DNA from: Armatimonadota bacterium
GTDB taxonomy: Bacteria > Armatimonadota > Fimbriimonadia > Fimbriimonadales > Fimbriimonadaceae
Direction of reading: 5' to 3'
DNA length: 64,000 nt
Assembly: GCA_017303935.1 (NCBI GenBank)
Contig: JAFLBD010000002.1
Coordinates: 62,001-126,000 of the forward strand
A program made the position numbers and the translations under genes. The stretch's first letter is position 1, and each line of letters begins with the position of its first letter. Below the pieces are notes generated by a model. It saw nothing but the letters and a program-made list of their open reading frames with translations. It did not search any database and was not told where the DNA came from. This document shows, one piece after another, positions 1,602 to 55,730 of the stretch.

Positions 1602-2147
1602 TTAAACCTTTGTTCCCGAAAGTACTCGGTGAACGGCCTCGGCCTGATTCAAGTGGCGGTTTCCATGCTTACAAACGATCATCAGGACGTCAAATCCATT
1701 CCACTTGATGAACTTGGCCCCATCGCTTTGCACGCGGACCTTTGCCAAATCGGCGGTCATCGCTCGTGGCAGCATCGCCTTTACCTTTCGAAGGTTCGCT
1801 ACATATTGCTCGACCACCGAATGATCGTATTGCCGCTTCTCCGGTTCAAACGCGGGCGGGACCGGAACATTGGGCCGCAACATGCCGCCAAGAATGAACT
1901 TCGCCAACATCGTGTGCCGTGCGTCCGAGTCATTAACTCCGCTGCCTGAAGCTAACGCCGTCTCTAGTCGCTGGGTCGCGTTCAAATCAGCTTTAACCAA
2001 GTGGTTAAATATCTGTCCGAGGCTCCAATCGTGAGCTGGCGTAACCTTGTTGATCGCAGCCGAATCGAGTCCAACAAACGCCTCAGCGCGGGCGATCAAG
2101 TTATCGACTTCTGCGGAAACTTCTTCGAAAAACAACTTCCGATCCAT
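1602..2147 (-). CDS. DinB-like four-helix protein
   Basis: A 181-residue protein with the DinB/YfiT pattern of three widely spaced histidines that bind a divalent metal. One is in the motif WSLGQIFNHLVKAD near residue 41, and a pair lies in CKHGNRHLNQAEAV near the C-terminus (HxxxH). Members of this superfamily include thiol-dependent S-transferases and damage-inducible proteins of unknown function, so no substrate can be given. Its ATG lies one base after the cysS stop, so it is probably translated from the cysS message. The segment NHLVK is encoded by one copy of the palindrome TTTAACCA-AG-TGGTTAAA (1992-2009). Confidence 0.7.
   Translation of the reverse strand: MDRKLFFEEVSAEVDNLIARAEAFVGLDSAAINKVTPAHDWSLGQIFNHLVKADLNATQRLETALASGSGVNDSDARHTMLAKFILGGMLRPNVPVPPAFEPEKRQYDHSVVEQYVANLRKVKAMLPRAMTADLAKVRVQSDGAKFIKWNGFDVLMIVCKHGNRHLNQAEAVHRVLSGTKV
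1992..2009. repeat. Interspersed palindrome TNACCNNNNGGTNA, copy in DinB-like gene
   Basis: TTTAACCA-AG-TGGTTAAA is a perfect 18-bp inverted repeat apart from the two central bases. It is the longest perfect copy of the window-wide motif and lies inside coding sequence. Confidence 0.8.
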
Positions 2148-4742: not shown

Positions 4743-4780
4743 GAAAAACGCCGGGGAAGATTTGATCTCGCCCCGGCGTT
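4743..4780 (-). terminator. Rho-independent terminator after homogentisate dioxygenase gene
   Basis: AACGCCGGGG (4747-4756) and CCCCGGCGTT (4771-4780) form a perfect 10-bp stem. On the minus strand it is followed by TTTTTCTTCTT. It ends the transcript of the gene at 4801-5961. Confidence 0.92.
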
Positions 4781-4793
4781 CACCATTTGGTTA
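4780..4793. repeat. Interspersed palindrome, non-coding copy
   Basis: TCACCATTTGGTTA, an exact match to TNACCNNNNGGTNA. It lies between the stop codon of the homogentisate dioxygenase gene and its terminator stem, and is one of only two copies outside genes. Confidence 0.75.
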
Positions 4794-4800
4794 GGTCGCT

Positions 4801-6008: not shown

Positions 6009-8018
6009 CTAGCGCAGGGTTTCCTCCCACCAATCGAGAATTTGTTGCAATCTGTGCCGCTTCATGTCCGCTGGGCCGTTACGGCTCATCCCGTGGCTTG
6101 TTGACGCAGGGTACCGAATGAAGCGAGTCTTCACTCCCATATGCTGGAGCGCGGCAAAGACTTGTTCGCTCTGCTCGATATTGCATCGCAAGTCTCCTTC
6201 GCTATGGATCACGAGCGTCGGTGTAACCACTTGGTTAAAATAGGCGATCGGCGATTGGTTCCAGAGCACTTTGATGCTATCGAGATCGCCAAACGCTTCC
6301 CCAGGCCAGTAACCGTTCGGCCGCCAGATATAGTCGCTATTGCCGGCTTTGCTGACCAGATTGCTCACGCATCGATCCGTAATCGCTGATTTGAACTCCT
6401 TAGTGTGGCCTACGGCCCAGTTGGTCATGTAACCGCCATAGCTTCCGCCCATGATCCCGATTCGGCTAGCATCACACCAAGACTGCTGCATGGTCCATTC
6501 GAGCACGGTTTGAATATCCTGCCAGTCCTCGACGCCCCACGAGCCGCGGATGGCTTTCGTGTGAGCTTCGCCGTATCCCTTGCTTCCCCTTGGATTGCTG
6601 TACACCACGTGATAGCCTGCCGCCGCAAGTAGCTGGAACTCATGCATGAAGGTGTAGCCATACATCATGTGCGGCCCGCCGTGAACCTCGATCACAGTTG
6701 GACAGTTCGGCTTGCTGCTCTGGATGTACCACGCCTGAAGTGGAGTACCTTCTTCGGTTTTTAACCAAATGGTTGAAGGCTGAAACACTTCTATTTCACC
6801 CAACAATTCATCATTGAAGTGGGATATGACTTTGGGTTGGTGGTTGGCGTCGTCAAGGTCAAGAACGGCTACTTCCATCAGCCTCGTGGAGCTTCCGACA
6901 ACGCAGGCAAACTTAGATCCATCAGCGGAAATGTTCCCGTTGAGAAGCACTTGTTCGCCTTCGGTCAACAGGTGATACTCCCCAGTTTCAACGTTAACAA
7001 ACGATAGGTTGACCGCCCCATGCTCGGCGTGCTGGAGATAAATTGCTTTTGAGTCAGGACTCCACATCAATCCACGGCCATCGTCGGATTTGGTGTCGCT
7101 ATTCACCCCGGTACTGAAGCAAACATCCACGTTTTCGGTGAGACAGCGGACGCCAGAACCATCTTTCTGCATCAAGAACACCCGCCGGTTCAGGTCCCCT
7201 CGATCGTCTGAATCGTCGGCATATCCGATGTATGCGATCCACTCACCATTTGGTGAAACTTCAACTTCGTCTTTCGAACCGATCGGTAATGATGTTAACT
7301 CGTGGAATTCACCAGTTAGCCTGACCCGCACGGCCACATCGTTAGCAGGCTCTCGCGAATATATTTTCTCGAACTTGGAATGGGTCAGCACGAGCGATTC
7401 CGAGCCCGGCTCCCAGCTAAATGCATAGTGTCCGAAAGGACATTGGGTGTAGAGCTCGTTCGTCGATCCGCTTGCCAAATCAACGATCCAAACCGTGTAG
7501 CGGTCGTCACAGAAATAGCCATCGCCATCCATGCGAAAGCTGATCGAATTGATCACCTTCGGAGGTTCGCTTTCGCCAGATTCTGCCCTCGCCTTGGCAG
7601 CCGCTTGCGTTCGATCTTCGCCTAGTTTTCGGAAAACCACCGCAAGTTTTTGACCATCTGGTGAAAGCTTCACACCACCGATGGAGCCTTCTGGAAAGTT
7701 CGATACCTTGCTTGCTTCGCCTCCTAAAAGTGAGAGCTGATAGATTTGGGACGATTCTTCGGGCTCGCGCTTTGAAACAAAGAAGATGCGCTCTCCATCT
7801 CTACTCCAGATTGGATTTGAGTTAGAACTCCCTGAACTGGTGATTTGGCGCTGCTCACCAGTCGCCAAATCGGTCAAGTAGAGGTGAGTGATATATTTGT
7901 TCTTGGGGCCAAGTTTCTTGGCAGCAAATACTACATGCTCACCATTTGGTGAAATGCGTGGTTGCTGAACAAAAATGAACCGGTCGAGGTCAGAAACAGT
8001 GATCGGGCGAGCACTCAT
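6009..8018 (-). CDS. S9 family prolyl oligopeptidase-like serine peptidase
   Basis: A 669-residue two-domain peptidase. The N-terminal 400 residues form a TolB/DPP-type beta-propeller with repeated ISPNGEH, LSPDGQK and VSPNGEW blades. The C-terminal alpha/beta hydrolase domain carries the triad: Ser526 in GIMGGSYGGYMTNW, Asp609 in HSEGDLRCN and His642 in STSHGMSRNG. These features fit acylaminoacyl peptidases or dipeptidyl peptidases that cut small peptides. No signal peptide is visible, so it is probably cytoplasmic. The gene holds five copies of the window-wide palindrome. Three encode S-P-N/D-G in the propeller; two, in a different codon phase, encode FNQVV and TIWLK. Other blades with similar residues (WSPDSK, WSRDGE) use different codons. 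Confidence 0.93.
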   Translation of the reverse strand: MSARPITVSDLDRFIFVQQPRISPNGEHVVFAAKKLGPKNKYITHLYLTDLATGEQRQITSSGSSNSNPIWSRDGERIFFVSKREPEESSQIYQLSLLGGEASKVSNFPEGSIGGVKLSPDGQKLAVVFRKLGEDRTQAAAKARAESGESEPPKVINSISFRMDGDGYFCDDRYTVWIVDLASGSTNELYTQCPFGHYAFSWEPGSESLVLTHSKFEKIYSREPANDVAVRVRLTGEFHELTSLPIGSKDEVEVSPNGEWIAYIGYADDSDDRGDLNRRVFLMQKDGSGVRCLTENVDVCFSTGVNSDTKSDDGRGLMWSPDSKAIYLQHAEHGAVNLSFVNVETGEYHLLTEGEQVLLNGNISADGSKFACVVGSSTRLMEVAVLDLDDANHQPKVISHFNDELLGEIEVFQPSTIWLKTEEGTPLQAWYIQSSKPNCPTVIEVHGGPHMMYGYTFMHEFQLLAAAGYHVVYSNPRGSKGYGEAHTKAIRGSWGVEDWQDIQTVLEWTMQQSWCDASRIGIMGGSYGGYMTNWAVGHTKEFKSAITDRCVSNLVSKAGNSDYIWRPNGYWPGEAFGDLDSIKVLWNQSPIAYFNQVVTPTLVIHSEGDLRCNIEQSEQVFAALQHMGVKTRFIRYPASTSHGMSRNGPADMKRHRLQQILDWWEETLR
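6224..7952. repeat. Cluster of five interspersed palindromes in the S9 peptidase gene
   Basis: Copies are at 6224-6237 (TAACCACTTGGTTA), 6762-6775 (TAACCAAATGGTTG, one change), 7243-7256 (TCACCATTTGGTGA), 7651-7664 (TGACCATCTGGTGA) and 7939-7952 (TCACCATTTGGTGA). They fall in two codon phases of one gene. Confidence 0.85.
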
Positions 8019-11304: not shown

Positions 11305-12273
11305 TTAGCGTCGGCGAGTAGAAACGACTGCTGCTTGGCTCGGAGTAACCGAGTTGATTTGCAATCCATCGTTGATCGACACGGTGACCACGTATTTTCC
11401 ATCGCCAGTGAATGCAATCGGCGAACCTATTGCGGACGCATCGTTCAGAATCGCGACCTGTTTGTTAGAATTCAGATCCCAGAAGCGAACGGTACGATCA
11501 TTGGCGCTACTGGCTGCCAACTTACCATTTGGTGAAATTGCAACTCGCTGAACCCAATCTTGGTGGCCGCCAAGCTTGGCACTTAGCGTCTTCTTCGCGA
11601 CGTCCCAAACTCCAACAAAGTTATCTCGCCCAGCAGTGATGACCCGTGTTCCTGCTGCGTTTGCAACCAAATCATTGACTCCTGTTCCTCCCGTGAAGTC
11701 CTTGCGGAACGAGATCCCGTAACTGGGTAGCCCTCGATAGTGAATTCCCTCGGTGAGGGTAGCAGCGATCAGATTGGATTTTACGAGCACCGCACTGGCG
11801 AAGACCACGCCATTTCCTGCGATTCGATATTTGGGCTTCGCGTCCGCGAAATTCCAAACGATGATCACATCATCCTTGCCAGTTGAGTACATCGTTTTAC
11901 CATCTGGTGAAAAACTGATTGATTGGATGCCGCGGGCGTGGCTTTGGACGCCGCGAGGAAACTCGCGGAGCTTCTTTCCAGTCTTCACGTCCCAAACGTA
12001 CATCCTTGAAGTTTCATCACCGGAGACGATCTGTTGACCATTTGGTGTAAAACTCAGCGCGTAGCAAGCCTGAGGATGCCCTGTTAGGGTCTGGGTGGTG
12101 GCTTTTGTTGCGGCATTCATCAATCGGACTTGTCCGTTTTCTAATGCTGCCGCAAACATTGCTGACTTCGGCCCAGTCGCAAAAGCGACGGGCTTGAGCG
12201 AATCAAAAGTCTGAATTCTGGTTACTGCAATAGGTTGTGCGCTGATGACAGCCGCAAGTGCGATCGATAACAT
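11305..12273 (-). CDS. Exported WD40-repeat beta-propeller protein
   Basis: A 322-residue protein with a short N-terminal signal sequence (MLSIALAAVISAQ) and WD40 repeats from about residue 30 to 300. Examples are GHPQACYALSFTPNG...MYVWDVKTGKK, ISFSPDGKTMYSTGKDDVIIVWNF and GHQDWVQRVAISPNGKL...VRFWDLNSNKQ. WD40 propellers act as binding platforms; there is no catalytic domain, so its partner is unknown. The C-terminus is basic (VVSTRRR). Three window-wide palindromes lie in the blades, encoding SPNG, SPDG and TPNG. It lies on the same strand as the lipoprotein and GH57 genes upstream, separated by 58 bases. Confidence 0.85.
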   Translation of the reverse strand: MLSIALAAVISAQPIAVTRIQTFDSLKPVAFATGPKSAMFAAALENGQVRLMNAATKATTQTLTGHPQACYALSFTPNGQQIVSGDETSRMYVWDVKTGKKLREFPRGVQSHARGIQSISFSPDGKTMYSTGKDDVIIVWNFADAKPKYRIAGNGVVFASAVLVKSNLIAATLTEGIHYRGLPSYGISFRKDFTGGTGVNDLVANAAGTRVITAGRDNFVGVWDVAKKTLSAKLGGHQDWVQRVAISPNGKLAASSANDRTVRFWDLNSNKQVAILNDASAIGSPIAFTGDGKYVVTVSINDGLQINSVTPSQAAVVSTRRR

Positions 12274-13266
12274 GGTTGGTTCTCCTAAAGCTAAGGACGC
12301 ACCATGCCCTGAAAGAATTACGGTGTAATTTCTATTGCATCAACTCTGCGATCTGTTTTTCATTAACCTTTTGGTCAAATCCCCATAATCCACGCCATTC
12401 GGAGCTTCGATTTTGCCCTTTGGAATCAATGCCCGTCGTACGAATCGTCAAGGGGACGAATCGACCGCCATCGATCACGATTTCAAGGCCAGTCAAACCT
12501 TTGCCTTTACGAGTGCCAATGATTCGGTAAAACGGCCGCTTTTCTCCCCAAACTTCCATCTCCTTGGTATCGGATTTGAAAGTCATGCCTTCCTTGCTCA
12601 AAGCTTGTAGAGCAGGGCTCCAGAATCCTGTTCCGCGATAGAGTGGAGCAAAGATTTCCCGTGAATACACTTCTTCGAAATCGAGTGCGGTCAATTTGGG
12701 CTGGGATGGAGTCGCAGCAGGCTCAGATTGACCCCACTTGCCAAGTTCCATCTTGCGTTTCTTATCCCCATAGCGCACAAGACGGCAAATGATCGTCGGA
12801 TCCGAAGTCAGGAAATAATCCACCGAAAACTTATCCTTCGACAGGATGTTGATCGTACCGTTCGTCATGCCTGAGATCGAGGAGTTTTTAACCAAAAGGT
12901 CAAATTTCCCGCCGACCTTCGTCATTTTTGCAATGGACCCGTCGACCTTACTTGCCAGTTCGATGATGTCCTGATCCACGGTTTTCCATCCGTCGGTTCC
13001 AGGCTTTCGAATAGCAATGGCTTCGGCCTTTTTGCCCGCTTCCTTTGCGGCATCAAACTGCTTCTTGATCTCGTCCGGGGTAGGGTTCTCTGCGCTCGTC
13101 GAAGAGTTCTGTGCCGGATTTTGACCATCTACCTTTGGATCGGCTGCCGGTTTGGACCCATCCACTTTAGTATCGGATGGACGACTGCCGTCTTCGACTT
13201 TCGTTTGCTGGGTGCTGTTGCACCCGAGAACGACTAGCCCTGCGGCCAAAACTAACCAATTGGTAA
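11522..13266. repeat. Cluster of six interspersed palindromes in WD40 and lipoprotein genes
   Basis: Copies are 11522-11535 (TTACCATTTGGTGA), 11897-11910 (TTACCATCTGGTGA), 12035-12048 (TGACCATTTGGTGT, one change), 12364-12377 (TAACCTTTTGGTCA), 12889-12902 (TAACCAAAAGGTCA) and 13253-13266 (TAACCAATTGGTAA). The last three encode FDQKV, FDLLVK and TNWLV in the lipoprotein, unrelated to the propeller motif. Confidence 0.85.
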
Positions 13267-13273
13267 ATTTCAT
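12332..13273 (-). CDS. Lipoprotein of unknown function
   Basis: A 313-residue protein with a lipoprotein signal peptide: MKFTNWLVLAAGLVVLGC, with a VLGC lipobox giving Cys18. A Lys/Asp/Ser/Pro-rich tether of about 60 residues follows. The body has beta-rich segments (GGKFDLLVKNSSISGMTNGT, FSVDYFLTSDPTIICRLV) and ends GFDQKVNEKQIAELMQ. The general layout recalls outer-membrane lipoprotein-sorting folds, but I recognise no specific family. Its ATG overlaps the TGA of the GH57 gene (ATGA), so the two are translationally coupled. Whether it has anything to do with glycogen is unknown. Confidence 0.7.
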   Translation of the reverse strand: MKFTNWLVLAAGLVVLGCNSTQQTKVEDGSRPSDTKVDGSKPAADPKVDGQNPAQNSSTSAENPTPDEIKKQFDAAKEAGKKAEAIAIRKPGTDGWKTVDQDIIELASKVDGSIAKMTKVGGKFDLLVKNSSISGMTNGTINILSKDKFSVDYFLTSDPTIICRLVRYGDKKRKMELGKWGQSEPAATPSQPKLTALDFEEVYSREIFAPLYRGTGFWSPALQALSKEGMTFKSDTKEMEVWGEKRPFYRIIGTRKGKGLTGLEIVIDGGRFVPLTIRTTGIDSKGQNRSSEWRGLWGFDQKVNEKQIAELMQ

Positions 13274-14985
13274 TTTTCAGGAATTAGCATTTGCTGTAGC
13301 GGATATTCCAACTTCGCCCAGTCCGAAAGGTCGATGGTCTTAGAAAACGGCGCATCCTTTTGCTTGCAATCTTCAAGGTAAGACCGCTCCTCCGCCGTGA
13401 TCGTTCCCTTGGCCAATGCAGATTCGGCCATTTCTGCGAGCTTGAAAAATCTATCCATATGGTCAGCAATGCGGATTTCAGCGTAGTCTCGTGCGGCCCA
13501 AGTAGAGATCAAGAACTGCCAGTCCGACGCTTCAGCCAAAAGCAACTCGCGCGCAGCCTGCTCGGCAATCTCTTTACAAAGCCCTTCTTGGCAAGAGTTT
13601 GCAAGCTCGATCATCTTTCGCTGAGCAGGATACAGCCGTTGCCAAGTCCAGAGGTTGTCGTTGTTCAGCCAAATAAAGTGATACCCACCTTCGCCCCACG
13701 ACCCTTCAGGAAGGTGAATCATGTGCCGGGCAGGTTCCTCGTCAATCACATCGCCCCCAGAAACGGATTCCAATTCAGGTTCTGCGGCCATGGCTCGCCC
13801 CATTTCGTAAAGGAATTCCGGACCTTCCCACCACCAATGACCAAAGAGCTCGGTGTCATACATCGCCACAAGCGTTCCTGTTCGACCCGCAACATCCTTA
13901 TAGTTCTGCATTGTGGATTTAACCAATTGGACAAAATCCTCGGCGTGACTCTGAATGTTTTCGTATGCGTTCCACGGGTTGTACTGTTGTTTCTGCCCGA
14001 GGTCCGCCTTATTCGGGCTGATGCGCCAATAGCGCAGCCTGCCTGGATAGAACTGCTTGTGAAACTCTAAGTACCACTCGTTTCCGGGATAACCCACCTC
14101 ACCGCTCCACACTTTCACCGTCGTGTGCGGATCGCGAGCAAAACAGATCACACCATTGGGCAGAGCGTAATGTTCATACTCGCTCCGATATTCGTCGGGA
14201 GGCGTGAACATCTTCTTGGATCGTTCAAAAAGATCGGCGAGTTGTGGAAACTGAGTACCGTAAGTTCCGAGCGGTTCTCCACCTCGAATCATGTGGCTAT
14301 CGACGAAGAAATACTCGATCCCATTCTCGTACAGAAAGTCTTCTACCGATTTTCGAGGCCACGGCTCGACATCATCCACCGGGCCAACCCAATCATATCC
14401 GGGGCGATAGGCGCATTCCGGAAGCCAAATTCCGCGAGGGTTCTTGCCGAATCGCTCAACGTGAGATCGAACGGCTAGCTTAACCTGAGCTTGGATCGAA
14501 TGATCCGTGTTGGCCAGTGGGAAATAACCATGTGTCGCACCACATGTGATGAGCTCGATTGAGCCTTCATCTTGAAAATAGCGAAATCCCTCGTTGATTG
14601 AGCGTCCCCATTGATGCTTAAAAGCAACCAGCGCCCTAGTGTAGTAGCGCTGCCACATGGCAGCAAGACCTTCCATCCCTTCCGGGCCTTCTTTTCGGAA
14701 CAGCTCGCCATCAGCAATTGCGGCATCGATTTTCTCCTGGCAATACTCCTCAAACCCAGCCTTGAACGACGGATCATCCAGTTGCTCCGCCAAGATCGGA
14801 GTCATGTTGATCGTCCAGCGTGGCTTGATTCCTTGACCATTGAGTCGGTCGAGCGCATCCAAGATCGGCAAGTAGCACTCCGCGGCGGATTCATTCAGCC
14901 AGTCGGTACCGTGCGGCGATTTTCCGTGCGAGAGCACATACGGCATGTGCGAGTGCAAACAAAGGAGAAATCGGCCAACTGCCAT
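13270..14985 (-). CDS. GH57 1,4-alpha-glucan branching enzyme
   Basis: A glycoside hydrolase family 57 protein of 571 residues from the ATG at 14985. This start gives the typical AVGRFLLCLHSHMPYVLSHG N-terminus; the frame stays open to 15075, but the added 30 residues do not resemble the family. The family nucleophile Glu190 lies in GIWLPECAYRPG and the acid/base Asp377 in MYDTELFGHWWWEGPEFL. Both match the spacing known for GH57 branching enzymes, as does the C-terminal DUF1957-like region. It is expected to form alpha-1,6 branches in glycogen in the cytoplasm. It overlaps the downstream lipoprotein gene by four bases and is divergent from the GAF/HD-GYP gene. One imperfect window palindrome (13920-13933) encodes VQLVK. 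Confidence 0.9.
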   Translation of the reverse strand: MAVGRFLLCLHSHMPYVLSHGKSPHGTDWLNESAAECYLPILDALDRLNGQGIKPRWTINMTPILAEQLDDPSFKAGFEEYCQEKIDAAIADGELFRKEGPEGMEGLAAMWQRYYTRALVAFKHQWGRSINEGFRYFQDEGSIELITCGATHGYFPLANTDHSIQAQVKLAVRSHVERFGKNPRGIWLPECAYRPGYDWVGPVDDVEPWPRKSVEDFLYENGIEYFFVDSHMIRGGEPLGTYGTQFPQLADLFERSKKMFTPPDEYRSEYEHYALPNGVICFARDPHTTVKVWSGEVGYPGNEWYLEFHKQFYPGRLRYWRISPNKADLGQKQQYNPWNAYENIQSHAEDFVQLVKSTMQNYKDVAGRTGTLVAMYDTELFGHWWWEGPEFLYEMGRAMAAEPELESVSGGDVIDEEPARHMIHLPEGSWGEGGYHFIWLNNDNLWTWQRLYPAQRKMIELANSCQEGLCKEIAEQAARELLLAEASDWQFLISTWAARDYAEIRIADHMDRFFKLAEMAESALAKGTITAEERSYLEDCKQKDAPFSKTIDLSDWAKLEYPLQQMLIPEK

Positions 14986-16371: not shown

Positions 16372-17498
16372 AGAACCAGGTCGTCGGTGTAGAGATTGGT
16401 AGCGGAGCGGTACGAATTGTGACCGCGATTCCCGATCGATTCCCGATCGTGACCGGAGTCCATCACTTGCCTTTTCATGGATTGCGGCACGGCGCACTGG
16501 AAGAACAGCAGGTTCTTGTCGCGACGTTGCTGAAGGACTTCGTCAAACAGCACGATTTGGTTGGACTGCCCACTGTTTTCAGCGTCCCTTCTGAATTTGC
16601 AAGCTTGTATTGGACCAAGCTCCCGAAAGTGCGCCGCGAAGAACTCGCGGAACTTGCGATTTATAAGCTCAAAGACCAGCTGGTCGGTGATTCGTCGGAC
16701 CTTTCGGTCGGCGTCGTTCCCGTCAGTGTGGACGAGCACGACAACTACGAGTCTTTGGTGATTTCTATCCCCAAGGGCCTCGTACGCGAGCGAGCTGACG
16801 CCATCATCGAGTCCGGACTCGTTCCTGCAGGATGCGAGCTTGAAGCACAGTCGCTCCTTCGCCTGATGCAACACGACCTCGAGTCGATGAGCAGCCTGGC
16901 ACGACAGATGTCCATGACCCTGGTCGATATCGGTTTGGAACGAACTCGATTCTTGGTGATGCAGAACCTCAGGCTGCAATTTGTCCGTGGAATTCGATTT
17001 GGCGCACGCCGAGTCCTTGAAGCCATCGCCGAGCAAGGTGGGTTTTCTGAAGTCGAAGCGGCTGAAATTTTGGATTCAGGCAAGGCAAAGTTGACCCTGA
17101 CTGCTCAGCTTGAAGTCGAGCACAACGGAAACCACGTCACTTATGACCTGAAGGAACCGATGGAATCGCTCATTCGCGAACTCCAAAGACTGTCTAGCTA
17201 CTTCCGCACGCTGAAGTCCGACCGGAGCTATTCAGGCATTCTTGAGCGCTTGGTTCTAGCCGGAGAATTGGTGTCAGTCGAAGGTTTTGCCGAATTCATT
17301 GGCAAGATGATGCACACCCGAATCCAGCTCATCAACCCGTTTGATGCTGCCCGACTGGAAATCGATATTGACCAATTGGACAGCGTGAGCAAGACGCCGC
17401 ACCGATTCGCCGTTGCCACAGGATTGGCACTTAGCCCCTACACCCTCGAAAAGGAGAATTCTCATGGTCGCCGAGCGACAGACGCAATCGCTGCCTAA
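16368..17498 (+). CDS. pilM: PilM-like actin-fold pilus assembly ATPase (set 1)
   Basis: A 376-residue protein with the PilM/FtsA actin-like fold. VVGVEIGSGAVRIVTAIPD at the N-terminus is the phosphate 1 loop. The central TLVDIGLERTRFLVM is the second nucleotide-binding segment, and LERLVLAGELVSVEGFAEFI the adenosine-binding region. PilM sits on the cytoplasmic face and binds PilN to join the inner-membrane pilus complex. The order of following genes (N, O, P, Q, B, C, pilin) confirms the role. A second, divergent copy is at 40097-41173. The end overlaps pilN by 35 bases. Confidence 0.88.
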   Translation: MKNQVVGVEIGSGAVRIVTAIPDRFPIVTGVHHLPFHGLRHGALEEQQVLVATLLKDFVKQHDLVGLPTVFSVPSEFASLYWTKLPKVRREELAELAIYKLKDQLVGDSSDLSVGVVPVSVDEHDNYESLVISIPKGLVRERADAIIESGLVPAGCELEAQSLLRLMQHDLESMSSLARQMSMTLVDIGLERTRFLVMQNLRLQFVRGIRFGARRVLEAIAEQGGFSEVEAAEILDSGKAKLTLTAQLEVEHNGNHVTYDLKEPMESLIRELQRLSSYFRTLKSDRSYSGILERLVLAGELVSVEGFAEFIGKMMHTRIQLINPFDAARLEIDIDQLDSVSKTPHRFAVATGLALSPYTLEKENSHGRRATDAIAA

Positions 17499-18117
17499 AC
17501 AAGAGATCGTCGATATTTCGGTGAATCTGCTTCACCAGATCTTTTCTGATCAAGCTGCCACGCGCGCGAAGAAGACCCGCGAAACGCTGATTTCGATCGG
17601 CGCAATGTTGGTTGCTAGCCTCTTTGTCGGGGGACTCGCGATCGAGTTTTTGGGCGAGCGCGAACATTCTGCTTCATTGGCCACAGAACTCGACAAGGAG
17701 AAATCCAAGCTCAAACAGCTCGGAGGCGTCCCCGTCGAAGAGATCAGCGAAGAAGTGAAGCGACTTCCTGGGCAGTACAAGGATCACAACTCCAATCTTG
17801 TGCTGTGGATGGGGTCGGTGCTTGCTAATGTCGAAGGCCCGATGAATCTTCTCAACATGAAGTTCTCGACCTCTGAGACAGGCTCCTTGAGCTTGACCGG
17901 TTCGGCCAAAACAAACGACATCACAGCGGTTCGAACCATGCTGGACAAAGTTCAAGGAGACGTTCCAACCGTGCTTGGAATGATCTCCGGAGTCACCCAC
18001 GACTCGACCGAACAAGTCGGGATCGTCACCGTTCAATTTGAGATTCAACAAAAGCCTTCTGAGTTGAAGGCTGCAACACCACCATCGGAGGATACAAATG
18101 CCAAAACTACCAACTAA
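17464..18117 (+). CDS. pilN: PilN-like inner-membrane pilus assembly protein (set 1)
   Basis: 217 residues from the ATG at 17464, which has a good AAGGAG site; an upstream in-frame start at 17413 lies deep in pilM and is unlikely. A short cytoplasmic N-terminus contains VDISVNLL, similar to the PilN segment INLLP that docks on PilM. One membrane helix follows (about residues 43-65: LISIGAMLVASLFVGGLAIE), then a coiled coil and a ferredoxin-like periplasmic domain. It overlaps both neighbours. PilN pairs with PilO in the periplasm. Confidence 0.82.
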   Translation: MVAERQTQSLPKQEIVDISVNLLHQIFSDQAATRAKKTRETLISIGAMLVASLFVGGLAIEFLGEREHSASLATELDKEKSKLKQLGGVPVEEISEEVKRLPGQYKDHNSNLVLWMGSVLANVEGPMNLLNMKFSTSETGSLSLTGSAKTNDITAVRTMLDKVQGDVPTVLGMISGVTHDSTEQVGIVTVQFEIQQKPSELKAATPPSEDTNAKTTN

Positions 18118-18646
18118 CCCTTTGGTTAAATTCGCGTTAGGAATTGGAGTCATCGGCTCGATCGCCCTAGGCGGGTTGATCTACCTCGAGAAGGGTAACC
18201 AAGACGGAATTTCTGCCGAGATCGCTAAGAACAAGCTAGCTGTTGATGCTGCTGAGAACCACCAATCAAGCGTGGCCAGCATCGGAATCACACAGCAAGG
18301 CCCGAGGATGCGAGTACTCGGAGAATTTGGAACCAAGATCGAATCGACGGTTTTGGATTCCGGCGCGACGCTGACGCAAATGCAGTTTCAGCCGAACGCA
18401 GTGCCTCTAACGATCGGGTCGCGACGAAAGAAGACGCCCACCGGCTGGGAGCAAAACTCCCTAGGCTTCGTTGTCGAAGGAACGACGATGCAAGTTTTCC
18501 TTGCTCTTCGAGCCATATCACAAATCGATGCCCCGTTCAGAATGAACGAAGTTGGATTTAACCGTTTGGTTAAACCTTCTGGTCAATCGGTTTTGACAGC
18601 GAATGTTTCACTCACTCTTCTAGCCCGAAAGGAAGGCTCAGTATGA
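18098..18646 (+). CDS. pilO: PilO-like pilus assembly protein (set 1)
   Basis: A 182-residue protein with one N-terminal membrane segment (FALGIGVIGSIALGGLIYL, about residues 12-30) and a periplasmic part. It is named by position between pilN and pilP and by architecture; sequence resemblance to canonical PilO is weak. It starts inside the end of pilN and overlaps the next gene by ATGA at 18643-18646. The gene carries three window palindromes. Two almost abut (18559-18572 and 18572-18585), spelling NRLVKPSGQS. Confidence 0.72.
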   Translation: MPKLPTNPLVKFALGIGVIGSIALGGLIYLEKGNQDGISAEIAKNKLAVDAAENHQSSVASIGITQQGPRMRVLGEFGTKIESTVLDSGATLTQMQFQPNAVPLTIGSRRKKTPTGWEQNSLGFVVEGTTMQVFLALRAISQIDAPFRMNEVGFNRLVKPSGQSVLTANVSLTLLARKEGSV

Positions 18647-19605
18647 AGAACAATCAACGCACTCTGCTCATTGCGATGGGCGTAGTTTTTGTTGGAGCGA
18701 TCGGCTACATGCTCACCACCATGGGCTCTGGTCCGGCTCCGGCCCAATCAGCGACGAAGGATGGAAAAGGATCCGGCAAATCGGCTTCTGGTCATTCTGA
18801 GCCGGTCGTTCGGATCGCACCATTCGAGAAAGACCCGTTTGCAGATTGGCAAGCCTCAACGGCTTCGGTCGAGACGGTCACTCAACAGCCTACTGGCGAA
18901 ATTCAGCAACCTGCACCAAGTGCAAGCGGAGTTTCACCAAATGGTCAATCTGGCCCGGCGAACGAAATCGTGCCGATCTCACCTGGACAAATCCAAGGCA
19001 GCTTGCCAAGCAATTTGCCAAATCTGCCCAATGCAACGAACCCCGCAACCGGAGCGCCAAATGGTCCTGACTTAGGGGACTATCCGAAGCTTGCGGTTCG
19101 AGGAGTGATGGGCTCAAAGAATGAAACCAAGGTGTACATCAGCATCGACGGTGGAACCGCCGAAGCTTTTGTTCTGAATGCTGCCGTGGAAGACCTCGGA
19201 AGAATCGTTGCGATCACCGAAAACGCTATCGAATTTACTTACAAGAATAAGACAATCCGGATCAAGGTTGGTCAGGAGATTGAACTGAAATGAAAAACCT
19301 GCGATTATTGATGTTGGCGACCTGGACCTTGCTTTCTGCAACGGCTGCCGTTTCGCAAGCTGACCAAGTTTCAACAAGCACCGGCGAGACGATTCAAACC
19401 GTCACGACGGTGACCGCGCTTGAACCAGAAGTGAGCCACACCGTGGTTCGAAAACACTCGACTTCATCGCGACGAACTCGATCTAACCATTCGGTTAAAT
19501 CGGCTAGCGTGCGAAGTAGTGCTCCACAAGAAGCTGTTGTCAAACCGCTTTCTTATACAAAGGGCGAGCTTGTCGGACCGATTGGCAACTCTAACCAATT
19601 GGTTA
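18115..19605. repeat. Cluster of six interspersed palindromes in pilO, pilP and pilQ (set 1)
   Basis: Copies are 18115-18128 (TAACCCTTTGGTTA), 18559-18572 (TAACCGTTTGGTTA), 18572-18585 (AAACCTTCTGGTCA, one change, sharing a base with the previous copy), 18934-18947 (TCACCAAATGGTCA), 19484-19497 (TAACCATTCGGTTA) and 19592-19605 (TAACCAATTGGTTA, fully palindromic). Confidence 0.87.
18643..19293 (+). CDS. pilP: PilP/GspC-like periplasmic linker protein (set 1)
   Basis: 216 residues: an N-terminal membrane helix (TLLIAMGVVFVGAIGYML), a long Pro/Ser/Gly/Gln-rich tether carrying FEKDPFADW (compare the DPF motif of PilP), and a C-terminal small beta domain. That domain (LAVRGVMGSKNETKVYISIDGG...ENAIEFTYKNKTIRIKVGQEIELK) has the PilP/GspC homology-region pattern. 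It is expected to bridge PilN/PilO to the secretin. It overlaps pilO and pilQ by ATGA on both sides. Confidence 0.8.
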   Translation: MKNNQRTLLIAMGVVFVGAIGYMLTTMGSGPAPAQSATKDGKGSGKSASGHSEPVVRIAPFEKDPFADWQASTASVETVTQQPTGEIQQPAPSASGVSPNGQSGPANEIVPISPGQIQGSLPSNLPNLPNATNPATGAPNGPDLGDYPKLAVRGVMGSKNETKVYISIDGGTAEAFVLNAAVEDLGRIVAITENAIEFTYKNKTIRIKVGQEIELK

Positions 19606-21032
19606 GCGATGTCGTGAATTCAGCTGTTGTTGAGCTCAACATCGCAGGCGATTCCTCCGAAAAGCCAGCATCAAAATCTGACAACAAGTCCGATGCTGAT
19701 AAGCCAAAGGAGATCGCAATTCACGTGGTGGATTGGTCGCTGGCAGAGGTCGTCGCAAGCATCACACACGAAACAGGTGTGAATATTGTTTTGGCATCTC
19801 CTGCGAATCCGAAGGTCACTCTTCGATTGGAAATGATGCCAGTAGGAGATGTAGTCCGAGTCTTGGCTTCAGTTGCTGCAATGCAAAGTGTGCAACTCAA
19901 GAGTGGCGGATATGTAATCGCGCCGACCGAGATTCTGAAGAATTCATTCCCTGCGGAATATGAAGAGCAAATCGGATCGCTAAATCCAACTGCAGCACCC
20001 AATGGTGGAACGAAGCCTGCTGTCAAGGCGGAAGATATGGCAATCGAGATCTACGAGGTCCAGCATGTCAAACCTTCCGAATTGGCCGAAGCCATTCAAA
20101 GCGTCTTCCCAGATACCGGTCTCATCATCCGCGTCGGGCCAGGCAAGCGATTGCCTTCCGCGATTGATGGAACAAAATCGGGCTCTGGTTCTGGATCAGG
20201 CGGTTCGGGTTCTGGCAGCGGCTCTGCACCAACGCCAACCGGAATCACCACTAGCACATCTGGCAATGGTGGACGCACGCTCATCTTCCGAGGTCCAAAA
20301 GGGATCGTTCAATCGGCATCTCAGCTTGCCAAACAGCTCGATGTCAAGTTGCCGCAAGTTGGTCTGAAGGTCCAGATCCACGACATTACTGATGACTCTT
20401 TACGAGATCTCGGCGTGTCTTGGCAAGATTCGACCGGTACAAAAATCACGGAAGACAACTCGACGCGAAGCGACATCAACTTCGGAAGTTTCGCGCGATC
20501 GCCACTCGCTTTCAATGCGACTTTGCGACACCTCGAAAAGACGAACAAGGCCAAGCTTCTTGCCCAACCAAACGTCACCGCTTTGGATGGCGAGAACGCC
20601 TACATTCTGATCGGTGATCGACTCAACTATCCAGTTGTGACCAGCTTCACCGATGCCGGACAACCAATTTTTGACGTCCGCGAAGAGCGTGTGGGTATCT
20701 ACCTTCAGTTCAGCGCGACGGTGAATGACGGTAACTTGATCACTCTCAATCTGTACCCACAGGTTTCGACTGTCACCGGGTTCTTGGAAGTCGGCAATCA
20801 AGGCAGCTATCCACAAATCTCAACTCGAGAAGCTAAGACTTCGGTCCGGGTGAAGAACGGTGAAACAGTGGTCATTGGCGGACTCTTGCGCGACGAAGAA
20901 ATTCGATCAATCGAACGAGTTCCTGTCCTTGGCAAGATTCCAATCTTGGGCGAGCTCTTTACCCGCCGAAAGAACACAAAAGAGAAGTCACAGGTTGTGA
21001 TCTCGATCACACCGACGATCATCGGAGACTAA
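19290..21032 (+). CDS. pilQ: Secretin, PilQ/GspD family (set 1)
   Basis: A 580-residue outer-membrane secretin forming the ring through which pilus or pseudopilus substrates pass. A signal peptide (about residues 1-25) is followed by a Ser/Arg/Lys-rich region. An STN/N0-like domain comes next (IAIHVVDWSLAEVVASITHETGVNIVL, from about residue 143), then N1-like domains, a Gly/Ser linker near residues 290-306 and the C-terminal secretin domain. The last includes LLAQPNVTALDG, VGIYLQFSATVNDG and the signature VKNGETVVIGGLLRDEE. It lacks an AMIN domain, unlike the second secretin at 35609-38167. Seven bases separate it from pilB. Confidence 0.92.
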   Translation: MKNLRLLMLATWTLLSATAAVSQADQVSTSTGETIQTVTTVTALEPEVSHTVVRKHSTSSRRTRSNHSVKSASVRSSAPQEAVVKPLSYTKGELVGPIGNSNQLVSDVVNSAVVELNIAGDSSEKPASKSDNKSDADKPKEIAIHVVDWSLAEVVASITHETGVNIVLASPANPKVTLRLEMMPVGDVVRVLASVAAMQSVQLKSGGYVIAPTEILKNSFPAEYEEQIGSLNPTAAPNGGTKPAVKAEDMAIEIYEVQHVKPSELAEAIQSVFPDTGLIIRVGPGKRLPSAIDGTKSGSGSGSGGSGSGSGSAPTPTGITTSTSGNGGRTLIFRGPKGIVQSASQLAKQLDVKLPQVGLKVQIHDITDDSLRDLGVSWQDSTGTKITEDNSTRSDINFGSFARSPLAFNATLRHLEKTNKAKLLAQPNVTALDGENAYILIGDRLNYPVVTSFTDAGQPIFDVREERVGIYLQFSATVNDGNLITLNLYPQVSTVTGFLEVGNQGSYPQISTREAKTSVRVKNGETVVIGGLLRDEEIRSIERVPVLGKIPILGELFTRRKNTKEKSQVVISITPTIIGD

Positions 21033-24456: not shown

Positions 24457-24492
24457 TCTCGCGAGCCAAACGTCTCTTGTTTGCTCGCGAGA
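24457..24492 (+). terminator. Terminator ending pil operon 1
   Basis: TCTCGCGAGC (24457-24466) pairs perfectly with GCTCGCGAGA (24483-24492), followed by TTTGTGCATTT. An in-frame TTG at 24477 for the next gene lies within this hairpin, which argues for the later ATG at 24504. Confidence 0.8.
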
Positions 24493-24503
24493 TTTGTGCA
24501 TTT

Positions 24504-27500
24504 ATGGGCCCTCTCAATAGGATCACCAAAAGGCTTGCGGGGCTGAGCGCCAACACACTGGTTCTGCCCCCGCTGCTCCTCGGTGCCTGGGCCGCGATCT
24601 ACTTTTTCGAAACCTATAACTTCATTTCCGCTCCTGGTTTGGGCGCAAATTTCGAATATGAAAGCGCTAAAGGCAAGGTCAAAGTACGCGCAAAATCCTA
24701 TTCCTTCGACGCGAAAGCGCAACGGCTAGAGGCTCTGGGGCTGCGAATTGAAGATCCTGCGGGCAAAATTATTGCTTCTGCCAGGCGAGTCGTCGTTTTG
24801 CGCGAGACAACAGGGAACGTCCACGTTGAAGCGTTTGGCGTCCTCGGAGACATCACCCGATTCAAAGACGGCAGTTTCTCATTTGACTCAATTCTGCCAA
24901 AGCCCACAGAGGAGAAGGGTCCCGAGAATGCGGTTACGGTCGTCGTTCACGAAGCAAATTTAAAGTACACCGACGAATCTAGAAGCAAAGTTCTTCGGAT
25001 GAATATCAGCGTGGATGAACTCGAGGCTCTTGGTGCGGGCAACAACTGGCTGGCCAAAGGCAAAGTGAGCATCCCAGGGTCAGGTACATTCCCCGCCCGA
25101 TTCTTAGTGGCCGACGACCAGTCGGCTCAAGCGGACCTGTTTCTCAAAAACACCACCATTGATCCGATCCTTCCATTGATTGAACGATACTTACCAAATG
25201 GTGAAACTCTGCCGTTCTCAGGCAAAGGGATCACGGCAAGCGGGAAATTGCAGGTCGACGCGGCAGCCAGGCTTGCCCCGAAGTTCTATGGTTCTATCAG
25301 TTTGGTTGCTAACCAATTGGTTAATAATGAGATCATCGCGCAGTCAGTTCGGTCGAATTTGAATCTGTATGGTCAACGAACAGTGTTCCGGGGAGACGCG
25401 ATCTTGAACCGGGCAAAAGTTCAAGTCGAGCAAGGTTCGCTGGATTGGACAAAGCAAATGCGTGTCGTGGCTCAACTGAAATCAGAGTTCGGTTCCTTAA
25501 ACGACCTTCCAGAGATTGCTAAGCGAAGAATCCCCAAAGAAGTTAAGGGGAACCGATTTTCTGCTCGCGTACTGGTCGGTTACGACCCAACATCATGGTC
25601 CATCGACGGCGATCTTTCCGCCACTGACATCGGTTACGGGACCACAACGATCACTAACCCTTTGGTGAAATTTGCTGGTGGGGCTAGCGGTGTAAGCGCG
25701 ACACTTATCAAGGGCAAACTGAACAATTCGGCGGTGACGGCCGCCGTACAGTTCGAGCCTAGAACCCAGAAATACAGAGGATTGGCGAACCTCAAGAGAG
25801 CAAATTTGCAGCAACTCGCTCGAAATTCCAGGCTACCGTTATCGGGGAGTGGCGACGTCCATCTCATTTTCGAAGGGAGCCCAAAATCAACCCAACTTTG
25901 GGCTGGTAGTAACGGCGAAGCACGCTACAAATTGGACAGCGGCAAAACGATTTCAGGCAAGTACATCGCTCGCTTGCAGGGCACCCCGAATCAACTCGAC
26001 CTCAATCGCCTTGTGATTTCCTCACCAAATGGTGAAATCGCCGCAAAGGGCAAGATCAGCCTCAGTAAGCAGTCGCTCGATTTGACGGTCATTGGAACCG
26101 GCATCAACATTGCGGCTTTCGCGCCGGACATTGAGGGCAAGGGCTACCTCTCCGGAGAACTCAAAGGAAAGTTCACCGACCCAACATTTGAGTCCAAAGT
26201 CGAGTTGATCAATATACAATCGGGTGAAACGGCGCTACCTTGGGTTCGCTTTGTTGCCTCTGGGAATCAGCACCGGATCGCATTTGAAGGACTTTCCGCG
26301 CAATACGGATTCACGCAATTCACTGGCAAAGGCACCTATGATCCAAAGTCGAGCCGGATTGCAGGAACGTTTGAAGCGCCGGCCATCCAAATTGCCGAGT
26401 TTTCACAGGGCCAAGCAGCTGGGCTGGTCAAACTTTCGGAAGGCAAGTTCTCGGGAACGCTAAAAAGTCCGTCCGCCACCGCCAAGCTCACGGGTGGCCC
26501 ACTGGCATTTTACGGCGCGTCGCTACAAGGACTCTCTGCCGACCTCAGCTTCCAAAAAGACACCGTTAGCATCCAGGGAGGGCGAGTGACTGTTGCTGAT
26601 GGAGACCAGGAAGGTGCCTTGTCCCTCAACGGAAAGTACTCGCTAGCCAATCGAGACGGCAATCTCAACGCTTGGTGGAAAGACATCCCGATTCGCCCAA
26701 TCGCCCAATTTGATGATCGGTTTGCATTTAAGGGTCAGTCCAGTGGCGAGTCGAAATTGACAATTCAAAACGGCAATATCGCATCCGGCAACGTGAAGAC
26801 CGGATTCAAAGACCTGTTTGTGAATGGTCAGGCGACTGGCTCTGGAAGCTTCGAGGCGAATGTCAACAACGGTGAGTGGCTCGCAAGCGGTTCGGTGGGC
26901 TCGATCGAGCGATTCTTGATGCTCAATCAAGTCCAAGTTGACAAGAATGCAAACGTCAAAGGCAACCTTGTCGCCTTCAACATCGATGGTCGCAACCTCC
27001 TTCAATTGGCAAAGCCGCTGTGGGAGGACGCCGATCCAGACGCAAAGCGAATTCTCAACGATCTCAGTGGCAACTTCTCGGGAGGTGGCACATTTGAGTG
27101 GAAGAATGACGACCTTGGAATCGCGTTTAACGAAGTCACTTTGAGCGAGATTCAATTAGGCACTCGCGCTGCAGGCCAGATTCAAGGCGACTTTTCTCGG
27201 TCGGACAAAGCTTGGCAAATCGCGAACCTCGCTTGGAAAACCGATGAGCAAATCGTGAAGGGCGGAGCGAAGATCGCTGACAATGGCCAGCTCACCGCAT
27301 CGTTGGAAGCAAGCAATTTTGACCTGAACTGGCTTAATGCGATCAACAGCAAAGTGCCGCCGATCGCTGCAAAATTGGACACATCCATCGAAATCGGTGG
27401 TTCGATCGAAAGCCCTACTGGCCGCGGCTCTGCAAAGATCACGAGCATTTTGAAGGGCACAGACACGGCCGAGCCACCGACACTGGATCTGTTCGACGTT

Positions 27501-49351: not shown

Positions 49352-50461
49352 TTAGGCTGTGACAGCGGAGAATTCTCGAACCGAACTCACCACATGGTTA
49401 ATCTCTTCATCTGTCAGATATTGATGCACTGGCAAGCTCAAAACCTCGTTGCTTGTCTGCTCCGTGATCGGAAGGCTGCCCTTCGCGGCGAGGTGCTGGT
49501 ACGGCTTGTGATAGTGCAGCGGCACCGGATAATAAATCATGGAGTCGATTTCCCGTTCCTTTAGATAGGCTTGCAACTCGTCCCGCCGACTAGATCGAAT
49601 GGTGAACTGGTGCCAGGTGTGGTTGTTGCCATTGAGAGTGACCGGCACCTCAACACCCGAACCTTGCAGCCCCGCAATGAGCTTAGCGGCAACGGCTTGA
49701 CGTGCTGTATTCCAACTTTCGAGCTGGGTCAACTTATGCCGGAGGATCGCTGCTTGAAGCTCTGCCATTCGGCTCGTGTAGCCAATGTGATCGTAGTAAT
49801 ATCGTTCGCGGCCCATTCCATGCACACGCATCGACCGGCAAGTTTCCGCGACACCGTCGTGATCAGTGATAATCATTCCGCCATCACCAGCCGCGCCGAG
49901 ATTCTTGGTGACATAGAAACTGATTCCGGCAGAGTGCCCGTATCGTCCGGCGTACTTGCCGTTGCAGTGGCTTCCAATGGCTTGAGCGGCATCTTCGAGC
50001 ACCAAAATTCCGTGCTTCTCGGCCACCGCATTGATGGCTGCCATATCAGCCAGCTGACCCCAAAGGTGCACCGGCACGATCGCCTTAGTTCGCGAAGTGA
50101 TCGCCGCTTCAATCTTTGTAGGGTCGATCATCTGATCTTCAGCGCGGATGTCGACGAAAACAGGAGTTGCGCCGGTCTGGATGATCGCCTCAATCGTTGC
50201 GACGAACGTGAAGGAAACAGTTATGACCTCATCACCAGGACCGATTCCGGCAGCGTCCATCATGATCCGCAGGGCATCCGTACCGCTGTTCACGGCAATC
50301 GCATGCTTCGCTCCGTGATACTTGGCGACCTCTTCTTCCAGCCCTTTGTTGTGCTTGCCCAGTACGTACGCGCCGGTCGACAAAATTTCTTTGAGGTCGG
50401 CATCGATCTTGTCTTGAAGGTCAATGTACTGGCGCTTAATGTCTAAGAATGGAACTCGCAT
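49352..50461 (-). CDS. DegT/DnrJ/EryC1/StrS sugar aminotransferase
   Basis: A 369-residue PLP enzyme of the family that aminates keto-sugars for polysaccharide or glycan precursors. VPFLDIKRQYIDLQDKI opens the protein. GTDALRIMMDAAGIGPGDEV binds phosphate, VLEDAAQAIGSHCNGKYAG is the cofactor Asp region and SFYVTKNLGAAGDGGMI carries the Schiff-base Lys186. It is full length. No other nucleotide-sugar gene adjoins it, so the substrate cannot be named. One window palindrome lies at 49387-49400 (encoding INHVV). It is divergent from the ABC permease gene over an 84-bp gap. Confidence 0.93.
   Translation of the reverse strand: MRVPFLDIKRQYIDLQDKIDADLKEILSTGAYVLGKHNKGLEEEVAKYHGAKHAIAVNSGTDALRIMMDAAGIGPGDEVITVSFTFVATIEAIIQTGATPVFVDIRAEDQMIDPTKIEAAITSRTKAIVPVHLWGQLADMAAINAVAEKHGILVLEDAAQAIGSHCNGKYAGRYGHSAGISFYVTKNLGAAGDGGMIITDHDGVAETCRSMRVHGMGRERYYYDHIGYTSRMAELQAAILRHKLTQLESWNTARQAVAAKLIAGLQGSGVEVPVTLNGNNHTWHQFTIRSSRRDELQAYLKEREIDSMIYYPVPLHYHKPYQHLAAKGSLPITEQTSNEVLSLPVHQYLTDEEINHVVSSVREFSAVTA
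49387..49400. repeat. Interspersed palindrome, isolated copy
   Basis: TCACCACATGGTTA, an exact match to TNACCNNNNGGTNA near the 3' end of the DegT gene. Apart from the weak match at 31113, it is the only copy between 26.1 and 53.2 kb. Confidence 0.7.
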
Positions 50462-55302: not shown

Positions 55303-55730
55303 AATTTGTCCAGCAGGCTCAATTGGACCGTGTTGGCGCATTCCTGTTTAGCAAAGAACCTGGAACCCCTAGTTTTGACATGCCGAACCAGGTTCCGCAT
55401 CGCACCAAAACAAAGCGATACGACAAACTCATGCGCGTGCAACAAGGCATCAGCCTTCGAAAGAACCGTGATTGGGTCGGCAAAGAGATCGACGTGCTGG
55501 TCGAGGAAGTGAAGGATGGATGGAGTGCTGGAAGAAGCTTTAGAGACGCTCCAGAAATCGACGGCCTGACTTACGTCCGGGGCGAACATCCGCTAGGCAC
55601 TTTCCAACGCGTACGGATCGTCGATGGCGCCGAATATGATCTCTACGGTGAACTTGCATCAGAGCCTACGGGACCAGTTCAGAGGCAATTGAGGCCTTTG
55701 CGAATGGCATCACCCAACCGACCGCTATAG
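54345..55730 (+). CDS. rimO: Ribosomal protein S12 methylthiotransferase
   Basis: A 461-residue radical SAM enzyme that thiomethylates an aspartate of ribosomal protein S12. The N-terminal UPF0004 domain starts RIITLGCAKNEVDSEEIAGV, the signature that separates RimO from MiaB. The SAM cluster is Cys156, Cys160 and Cys163 in SEGCDHRCTFCTIPSFRG. The C-terminal TRAM domain runs from about residue 370 to 445. It is full length. It ends a plus-strand run from 50.5 kb and is followed by a strong terminator. Confidence 0.95.
   Translation: MSKPQNVRIITLGCAKNEVDSEEIAGVLQGSGYSVDGGAPHADVTIINTCGFLEAAKAESIEAIKKAVRSKGQGKVIVAGCLAQRMGEELARLAPGADAYIGVGQMGRFDQIVKTTLNSSERLMEVGPPHHIWAEVETRTRPGNPWSAYLKLSEGCDHRCTFCTIPSFRGNHQSKPIERVLQEANHLVRTGVQELNLIAQDVTQYGFDLYKEFTLPKLLKELNKIEGLRWIRLLYFYPNRLTPEVIDAMATLDKVLHYIDIPLQHTHPETLRRMKRPWDGDRYLKLFEDLRSAMPNAAIRTTFIVGFFGETEEEFNHMVKFVQQAQLDRVGAFLFSKEPGTPSFDMPNQVPHRTKTKRYDKLMRVQQGISLRKNRDWVGKEIDVLVEEVKDGWSAGRSFRDAPEIDGLTYVRGEHPLGTFQRVRIVDGAEYDLYGELASEPTGPVQRQLRPLRMASPNRPL

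Follow-up and report, generated by a model that had tools for sequence, protein, structure and literature searches.

Our question was why a short palindrome recurs in a gene for a propeller-bearing S9 family peptidase of an Armatimonadota bacterium (assembly GCA_017303935.1), and whether it reflects the protein repeat or a signal in the DNA. The gene lies in a stretch of 64,000 nt (contig JAFLBD010000002.1, positions 62,001 to 126,000; hereafter the window, whose numbering is used unless a contig is named). We label the genome of the window G000 and a second species of its genus G003, and used sampled stretches of genomes for gene-level counts. We find that the palindrome is a DNA-level signal and not protein-repeat codon usage, and that the propeller gene is one carrier among many of a motif that extends 4 bp further on each side and crowds into one part of the chromosome. 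The gene and its five sites are as follows.

6009..8018, minus strand: S9 family peptidase gene with Peptidase_S9 (Pfam, 1.2e-44) and PD40 propeller repeat (1.2e-11), carrier of five sites
6222..6239: site TGTAACCACTTGGTTAAA in the S9 gene (FNQVV)
6760..6777: site TTTAACCAAATGGTTGAA in the S9 gene (TIWLK)
7241..7258: site ACTCACCATTTGGTGAAA in the S9 gene (SPNGE)
7649..7666: site TTTGACCATCTGGTGAAA in the S9 gene (SPDGQ)
7937..7954: site GCTCACCATTTGGTGAAA in the S9 gene (SPNGE)

The core ACCANNTGGT is present five times in this gene, at 6226, 6764, 7245, 7653 and 7941. Three SPNG/SPDG blades are coded TCA CCA AAT GGT, TCA CCA GAT GGT and TCA CCA AAT GGT, and the blades WSPDSK (AGT CCT GAC TCA) and WSRDGE (AGT AGA GAT GGA) do not contain the palindrome. 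In FNQVV (AAC CAA GTG GTT) and TIWLK (ACC ATT TGG TTA AAA) it stands in the other two codon phases. This codon reading bears out a first-pass annotation, which had described the three palindromic blades, the differently spelled blades and the two additional copies in another phase, and had argued against a simple codon preference for a protein repeat. That argument is supported by the use of all three phases, by the occurrence of the motif in unrelated genes and by synonymous-codon shuffling of the S9 gene, which gives a mean of 0.64 core copies and never reaches the observed five (0/2000 shuffles). The annotation had also proposed a tabulation of SP[ND]G codons; in the sampled genes the palindrome-forming set exceeds the product of codon frequencies by two orders of magnitude. 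TCA-CCA-NAT-GGT spells 9 of 12 such motifs in the site-rich domain of G000 defined below (3 of these 9 from the S9 gene) versus 0.04 predicted, 5 of 10 on the domain contig of G003 versus 0.03, and 0 of 7 outside the domain versus 0.03.

The S9 gene has the highest core-site number among the listed genes, yet no full-length match in the incomplete genomes of its genus: the four other genus genomes (70-95% complete) contain partial, weak matches only (E-value 4e-8 or worse). A search with the S9 protein for related loci returned distant relatives only, the best 31% identical. Because the genus matches are partial and weak, this gene could not be used to assess conservation of site positions.

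The full motif is an 18-bp palindrome, about YTMACCAWWTGGTKAR, with the consensus W-Y-T-M-A-C-C-A-W, mirrored, among 61 core copies from the sampled G000 domain. Information at positions -9 to -6 amounts to 0.29, 0.79, 1.00 and 0.38 bits in these copies; the logo from 39 copies in G003 is similar but weaker (0.02 bits at -9). The spacer is nearly invariant: 43 sites in the G000 domain have a spacer of 2 and none has 0, 1, 3, 4 or 5, and on contig C16 of G003 20 sites have a spacer of 2 and one each 0 and 1. Single substitutions in the ACC of one half leave 0-3 copies each in the domain versus 43. The window contains 21 core sites, and its dinucleotide shuffles 0.70 ± 0.86. Over the whole genome there are 131 copies of ACCANNTGGT versus 59 of the reversed control and 66 of TNACCANNTGGTNA versus 4, and in the four other genus genomes TNACCANNTGGTNA is found 29, 43, 39 and 35 times (reversed 0, 1, 1 and 0). 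Extended sites were scored with a position weight matrix (cut-off 14 or more) that was trained on the same sites and is thus partly circular. Less dependent on this choice of sites are the shuffles of synonymous codons in the S9 gene (above) and, described below, those in G003, the operators at TetR gene starts outside the genus, the genome profile and the map on genome G095.

Core sites lie within called genes at 65 of 73 positions in the G000 sample and at 36 of 39 on G003 C16 (300 kb), with a gene coverage of 0.91 in both; the intergenic remainder is 8/73 and 3/39, respectively, so that the two species together have 101 of 112 sites in genes. Of 25 sites inspected in family genomes beyond the genus, 23 likewise lie within genes. 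The 101 intragenic sites are distributed 69/26/6 over the three codon phases, a skew that would be expected if stop codons and rare tryptophan restrict where the word fits. Synonymous shuffles of the G000 domain genes yield 3.4 TNACCANNTGGTNA copies versus 38 observed, and those of the G003 C16 genes 1.6 versus 18; none of 100 shuffles reaches the observed number in either case. The reversed core has no excess in the domain genes (4 versus 3.8). Genes outside the domain contain 3 copies versus 0.5 under shuffling (2 of 100 shuffles reach 3), two of which fall in an intermediate segment, C1:750-757k. The sites are thus selected as DNA and placed in genes irrespective of promoters.

We mapped the sites along the G000 chromosome with a sub-pattern that lists 59 of the 66 TNACCANNTGGTNA places, the other seven having central pairs outside it. 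Thirty-four places fall in C2:1-212,000 (4.9 expected), 5 in the 23-kb contig C4, 7 in C1:33-165k, 5 in C1:722-826k, 7 in C3 (18-151k) and 1 at C2:672k. The site-poor segments, 1.90 Mb in total with borders set after the sites were known, hold 1 of the 59 places versus 43.9 expected. Matrix densities in sampled stretches are 276 per Mb for C2 and C4, 117 for C1, 100 for the intermediate segments on C3 and C1 and 8 for the rest, in classes that were themselves defined from the sites; the reversed matrix gives 2, 0, 1 and 0 matches in total in the same four classes. The window is located within the densest part of G000. Within this dense domain, 22 kb of the window (approximately 27000-49000) contain zero sites at matrix 14 or more, and both flanks are rich.

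Two perfect parS sites of G000 are found at C2:216,456 and C2:219,138, and the last matrix site before them at C2:212,424 (score 17.9). G003 has a parS variant, TGTTCCACGTGGAACA, at C8:105,865, and the only extended site of contig C8 is located 2.8 kb away at 108,700. In the two species, the site domain stops ∼3-4 kb before parS. Because the origin signals of G000 were ambiguous, we took G095, a genome of another genus, as the origin map; skew sampling of G011 was noisy. G095 is a single contig of 2.76 Mb whose clean skew turns from negative to positive at 1.87-2.00 Mb (origin set at 1.93 Mb; 20 stretches of 20 kb sampled). Within 350 kb of this skew origin we find 39 of 47 orthologs of G000 domain genes, 28 of 40 of G003 C16 genes and 0 of 17 of genes from the site-poor segments. 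From the difference between domain and site-poor orthologs, we read the main site domain as origin-side through another genus, a placement that does not account for the intermediate segments.

Comparison of G000 and G003 revealed that the density of sites is kept between species and that their positions mostly are not. Genes of G003 C16 have their G000 counterparts, as sampled, in C2:0-207k, C4, C1:0-71k and C1:808-812k. In 149 ortholog pairs, the core is found at the same codons of the partner for 3 of 22 G000 sites and 3 of 29 G003 sites (chance agreement of any eight such positions is 4.6%), and is absent from that position for 19 of 22 and 26 of 29, respectively. Even proteins that are 82% identical can have the site in one species and another spelling or residue in the second. 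The distant genome G009, from another genus, keeps two sites at the same aligned codons as G000, in the following genes.

L083:2897-3295 and L085:2833-3351: G009 genes with kept sites, recX (Pfam) and a HIT-like gene (by eye)

Gene order in the domain is thoroughly scrambled between the two species of this one genus, with much of the gene content kept. Site-specific recombination sites were considered because of the scrambled domain and set aside since the sites lie inside genes. A 20-kb stretch of G003 (C7:10001-30000, L074) contains seven core sites, several of them in orthologs of genes from the site-free segment C1:204-207k of G000. The sites may follow chromosomal place rather than gene.

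Among ten site-bearing proteins, we recognized by sequence one regulator of TetR type whose first codons contain a site.

G000:C1:120646-121242: TetR-family gene, candidate binder; likely true start GTG at ∼120676, inside its own operator

Its TetR_N domain was confirmed (PF00440, E-value 6.7e-8, 32.6 bits versus a cut-off of 24). Orthologs (E ≤ 1e-8) are present in 31 of 70 family genomes; G001 (78% complete) gave no TetR match. A matrix score of 8 or more occurs in a 105-bp window at the gene start in 17 of 33 ortholog loci versus 0.70 expected from the same loci elsewhere, and a score of 12 or more in 10 of 33 versus 0.22; loose matches amount to 19 of 33 versus 2.7 expected. Outside the genus, 13 of 29 genomes and 7 of 14 genera (genera counted by hand) have a start site at matrix 8 or more. 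About half of the TetR orthologs thus have a palindrome of the same type in their promoter or at their start. In the four genus members that have the gene, the operator, with a score of 22-23, overlaps the probable GTG start. Its centre in other genera lies mostly 14-21 bases upstream of the ATG, in several of them against a -10-like TTAVAAT (promoter reading by eye), and in G014, G028, G020 and G082 a looser ACCN4GGT overlaps a TTGAC-like -35 element. The helix-turn-helix stretch N-H-A-x-V-H-Y-Y is identical in 19 of 19 aligned orthologs. The sites' likely binder is the TetR-family protein of the same genome, and an autoregulated TetR binder is a well supported prediction.

In 9 of 16 loci inspected, an alanine racemase gene runs divergently from the TetR gene (by eye; Pfam on the G011 copy only), and no racemase adjoins it in the four genus loci (by eye). 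In several of the racemase-TetR loci the operator lies between the divergent genes. In G011 (L137:3081-4666), a 2-hydroxyacid dehydrogenase is found beyond the racemase. An M28 peptidase adjoins the TetR gene in G002 and, by eye, in other loci, and an oligopeptide-type ABC ATPase is convergent on its 3′ side in G003 and G002.

Across the family, genomes with the TetR gene have more sites on average. In 68 family genomes outside the genus (0-17 sites each), the 29 genomes with TetR have a mean of 7.03 sites and the 39 without 3.03 (Mann-Whitney p = 2.4e-5). At the genus level (14 versus 15 genera) the means are 7.04 and 2.60 (p = 0.0013), kinship being handled by genus averaging only, without a tree. 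The reversed motif shows no difference (1.38 with TetR versus 1.64 without).

Taken together, we consider it probable that the palindrome is the binding site of a TetR dimer of the same genome that marks the origin-side domain as a nucleoid body. The TetR protein would repress itself through the operator at its own gene and would coat or bridge many intragenic sites; the coated sites would in turn mark the origin-side domain as nucleoid body. Its most likely role would be to position or anchor the domain or to exclude the division machinery, as SlmA and RefZ do. Marking of the domain for nucleoid organization or division control is the mechanism we infer. The site set may represent an ancestral autoregulatory operator that multiplied within the genus, with putative steps still seen in living relatives: an operator and few sites (0 in G008), followed by as many as 17 sites in other genera and finally 29-66 in the genus itself.

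Several observations weigh against this assignment. The TetR gene was chosen by eye among ten site-bearing proteins and not by a screen of all regulators. Sixteen of the 33 orthologs have no start site at matrix 8, including those of the site-rich genomes G005 (17 sites), G009 (14), G027 (12) and G088 (10). G008, G014 and G082 have the TetR gene and 0-1 sites, and sites occur without a TetR match in G069 and G081 (9 each), G066 (8) and G031, G061 and G075 (6 each). To these we add the tree-free treatment of kinship in the profile, and the definition of matrix and domain classes from the sites themselves. GC skew, GC3 skew, strand bias and DnaA boxes are all ambiguous as to the G000 origin, the skew being weak, and C3:1-151k and C1:722-827k hold ∼100 sites per Mb, yet only 1 of 13 of their orthologs maps near the G095 origin. 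The adjacency to parS may be shared gene order rather than a cause.

Among the alternatives, the one that survives best is a conventional TetR regulon, in which a transcription factor has unusually many sites, those inside genes serving to repress or attenuate genes or else to titrate the protein. It would fit the promoter operator at the TetR gene in many genomes, the divergent alanine racemase (9/16 loci), which is the classical layout, and the modest 0-17 sites in the 68 family genomes outside the genus. We nevertheless regard it as unlikely, since the sites track the coding fraction and not promoters (101/112, and 23/25 in the family; the TetR gene's own operator is the exception), since 19/22 and 26/29 sites are absent at the same position of the ortholog, and since a regulon is not expected to lie mostly within one chromosomal domain. 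Less probable again is that the sites belong to another chromosome-organizing protein and that the TetR link is coincidental: coincidence would have to produce 17 of 33 operators where 0.7 are expected and the genus-level profile (p = 0.0013), although TetR is the single candidate tested, several site-rich TetR carriers are without the operator and some non-carriers have sites. We consider it very improbable that a HIP1-type iterated palindrome is kept here by methylation, repair or mutational bias. Such a word would likewise be palindromic, intragenic, codon-overriding and far beyond chance, but HIP words are reportedly genome-wide, compared with 1 of 59 listed places in 1.9 Mb, and the operator of the same type at the start of one regulator points to a binding protein. 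On the basis of intragenic placement and domain confinement, we rejected both the HIP1-like word and the promoter regulon. Codon preference for a repeated protein motif, which could be suspected from three of the five S9-gene sites lying on SP[ND]G blades, is virtually eliminated by the synonymous shuffles (0/2000) and the SP[ND]G tabulation (9/12 versus 0.04 expected in the domain, 0/7 outside), together with the use of three codon phases.

The window as a whole contains 28 matrix matches, 27 of which lie within genes. Those outside the S9 gene, and one additional core match, are listed below.

1992..2009: site TTTAACCAAGTGGTTAAA, position common to the G003 ortholog
4778..4795: intergenic site GTTCACCATTTGGTTAGG, upstream of gene 3687-4697, by eye glyceraldehyde-3-phosphate dehydrogenase-like
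11520..11537: site in gene 11305-12273 (WD40-like by eye), with position and sequence common to the G003 ortholog
11895..11912: site in gene 11305-12273
12033..12050: site in gene 11305-12273
12362..12379: weaker site, matrix 16.1
12887..12904: weaker site, matrix 16.4
13251..13268: site at the 5′ end of gene 12332-13273
13918..13935: weaker site, matrix 16.8
16675..16684: core match ACCAGCTGGT, unlikely to be a site as its flanks are poor and its score is under matrix 14
18113..18130: weaker site, matrix 16.8
18557..18574: weaker site, matrix 17.9
18932..18949: site in gene 18643-19293
19482..19499: weaker site, matrix 17.2
19590..19607: site in gene 19290-21032
25189..25206: site in gene 24477-29021
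25308..25325: site in gene 24477-29021
25653..25670: weaker site, matrix 16.2
26020..26037: site in gene 24477-29021
49385..49402: site in gene 49352-50461
53222..53239: site in gene 52079-53413
54894..54911: site in gene 54345-55730
55287..55304: site in gene 54345-55730
61255..61272: weakest listed site, matrix 14.9

Pfam returned no family for the C-terminal part (26643-29021) of gene 24477-29021, and a GNAT protein only for one gene carrying three sites.

We next compare the proposed system with known ones, which are described here from excerpts of the sources. SlmA, which serves nucleoid occlusion, is a TetR-family protein whose palindromic sites occur 50 times in E. coli, mainly in coding sequence, and are excluded from Ter (PMC3116907); another account gives 24-52 sites (PMC4726725). 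The likeness lies in a TetR-family candidate with many palindromes (66), 101 of 112 inspected core sites being intragenic. The Ter exclusion can be set beside the site-poor segments, where 1.9 Mb hold 1 of the 59 listed sites, in a genome whose terminus was not located. The motifs differ, GTGAGTACTCAC in SlmA versus YTMACCAWWTGGTKAR here. Residues 12-173 of the candidate align to SlmA (4gct) with an E-value of 8.8e-6, ranked third after two other TetR-type proteins. On the NCBIfam SlmA model (NF007015) the candidate scores 29.2 bits, below the cut-off of 120, which is no better than its score on the BetI model (30.5 bits, cut-off 201.3). SlmA residues F65, R73, L94, R101, N102 and L105 have been implicated in FtsZ control, and substitutions of R73, R101 and N102 impair it (PMC3573117). 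In a weak pairwise alignment (E. coli number = 4gct chain number + 2), R73, R101 and N102 correspond to D, P and T in the candidate, F65 to Y and L105 to F, and L94 is kept. Key residues for FtsZ control in SlmA are thus missing from the candidate.

RefZ, likewise of the TetR family and active in Bacillus septum placement, has five near-palindromic motifs (RBMs), two per chromosome arm and one near oriC, with relative positions conserved across the Bacillus genus (PMC6657595). It shares with the candidate the protein family and a palindromic kind of motif. Closeness of the sites to oriC may be a further likeness, read indirectly from the G095 map of another genus (39/47 domain orthologs and 1/13 intermediate ones near its origin). 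It differs in having five motifs versus 66 sites, and in keeping their relative positions where the sites described here mostly turn over. The candidate scores 26.6 bits on the NCBIfam RefZ model (NF037937), below the cut-off of 180. It resembles SlmA and RefZ in architecture, and any role in division must probably work another way.

MatP/matS and Noc/NBS are similar in that sequence-specific palindromes are biased to a chromosomal domain; MatP, however, acts on Ter, and Noc belongs to the ParB family. ParB/Noc was rejected as binder: G000 has one ParB_N match (E ≤ 0.01), a ParB at C3:14,294 adjoining ParA (ParA by eye), and no second ParB-type protein at this threshold. HIP1 of cyanobacteria is likewise an iterated high-frequency palindrome but is not known to be confined to a domain. 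In open-licence texts, we found no system of TetR protein, origin-side domain and coding sites like this one, no occurrence of the literal core, and nothing comparable on TetR-type nucleoid occlusion in the phylum, on TetR with alanine racemase or on Armatimonadota with nucleoid.

To our knowledge, sequence-specific markers of chromosome regions are known from few lineages (SlmA, RefZ, Noc, MatP and RacA). We see about even chances that the palindrome belongs to a TetR-based nucleoid system that is the third of its kind, lies outside both the SlmA and the RefZ family and evolved independently. In it, an autoregulatory operator would have given rise to ∼60-70 mostly intragenic, origin-side sites, kept by density, rewriting codons and even amino acids of the proteins that carry them, and marking the domain for segregation or division control. 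If so, it would add a chromosome-region marking system that has a motif of its own and a candidate binder already named, and would suggest a route, across living genera, from a self-repressing operator to a chromosome-marking system. It would also be a clear case of a chromosome-level DNA signal that overrides codon, and sometimes amino-acid, choice in unrelated genes.

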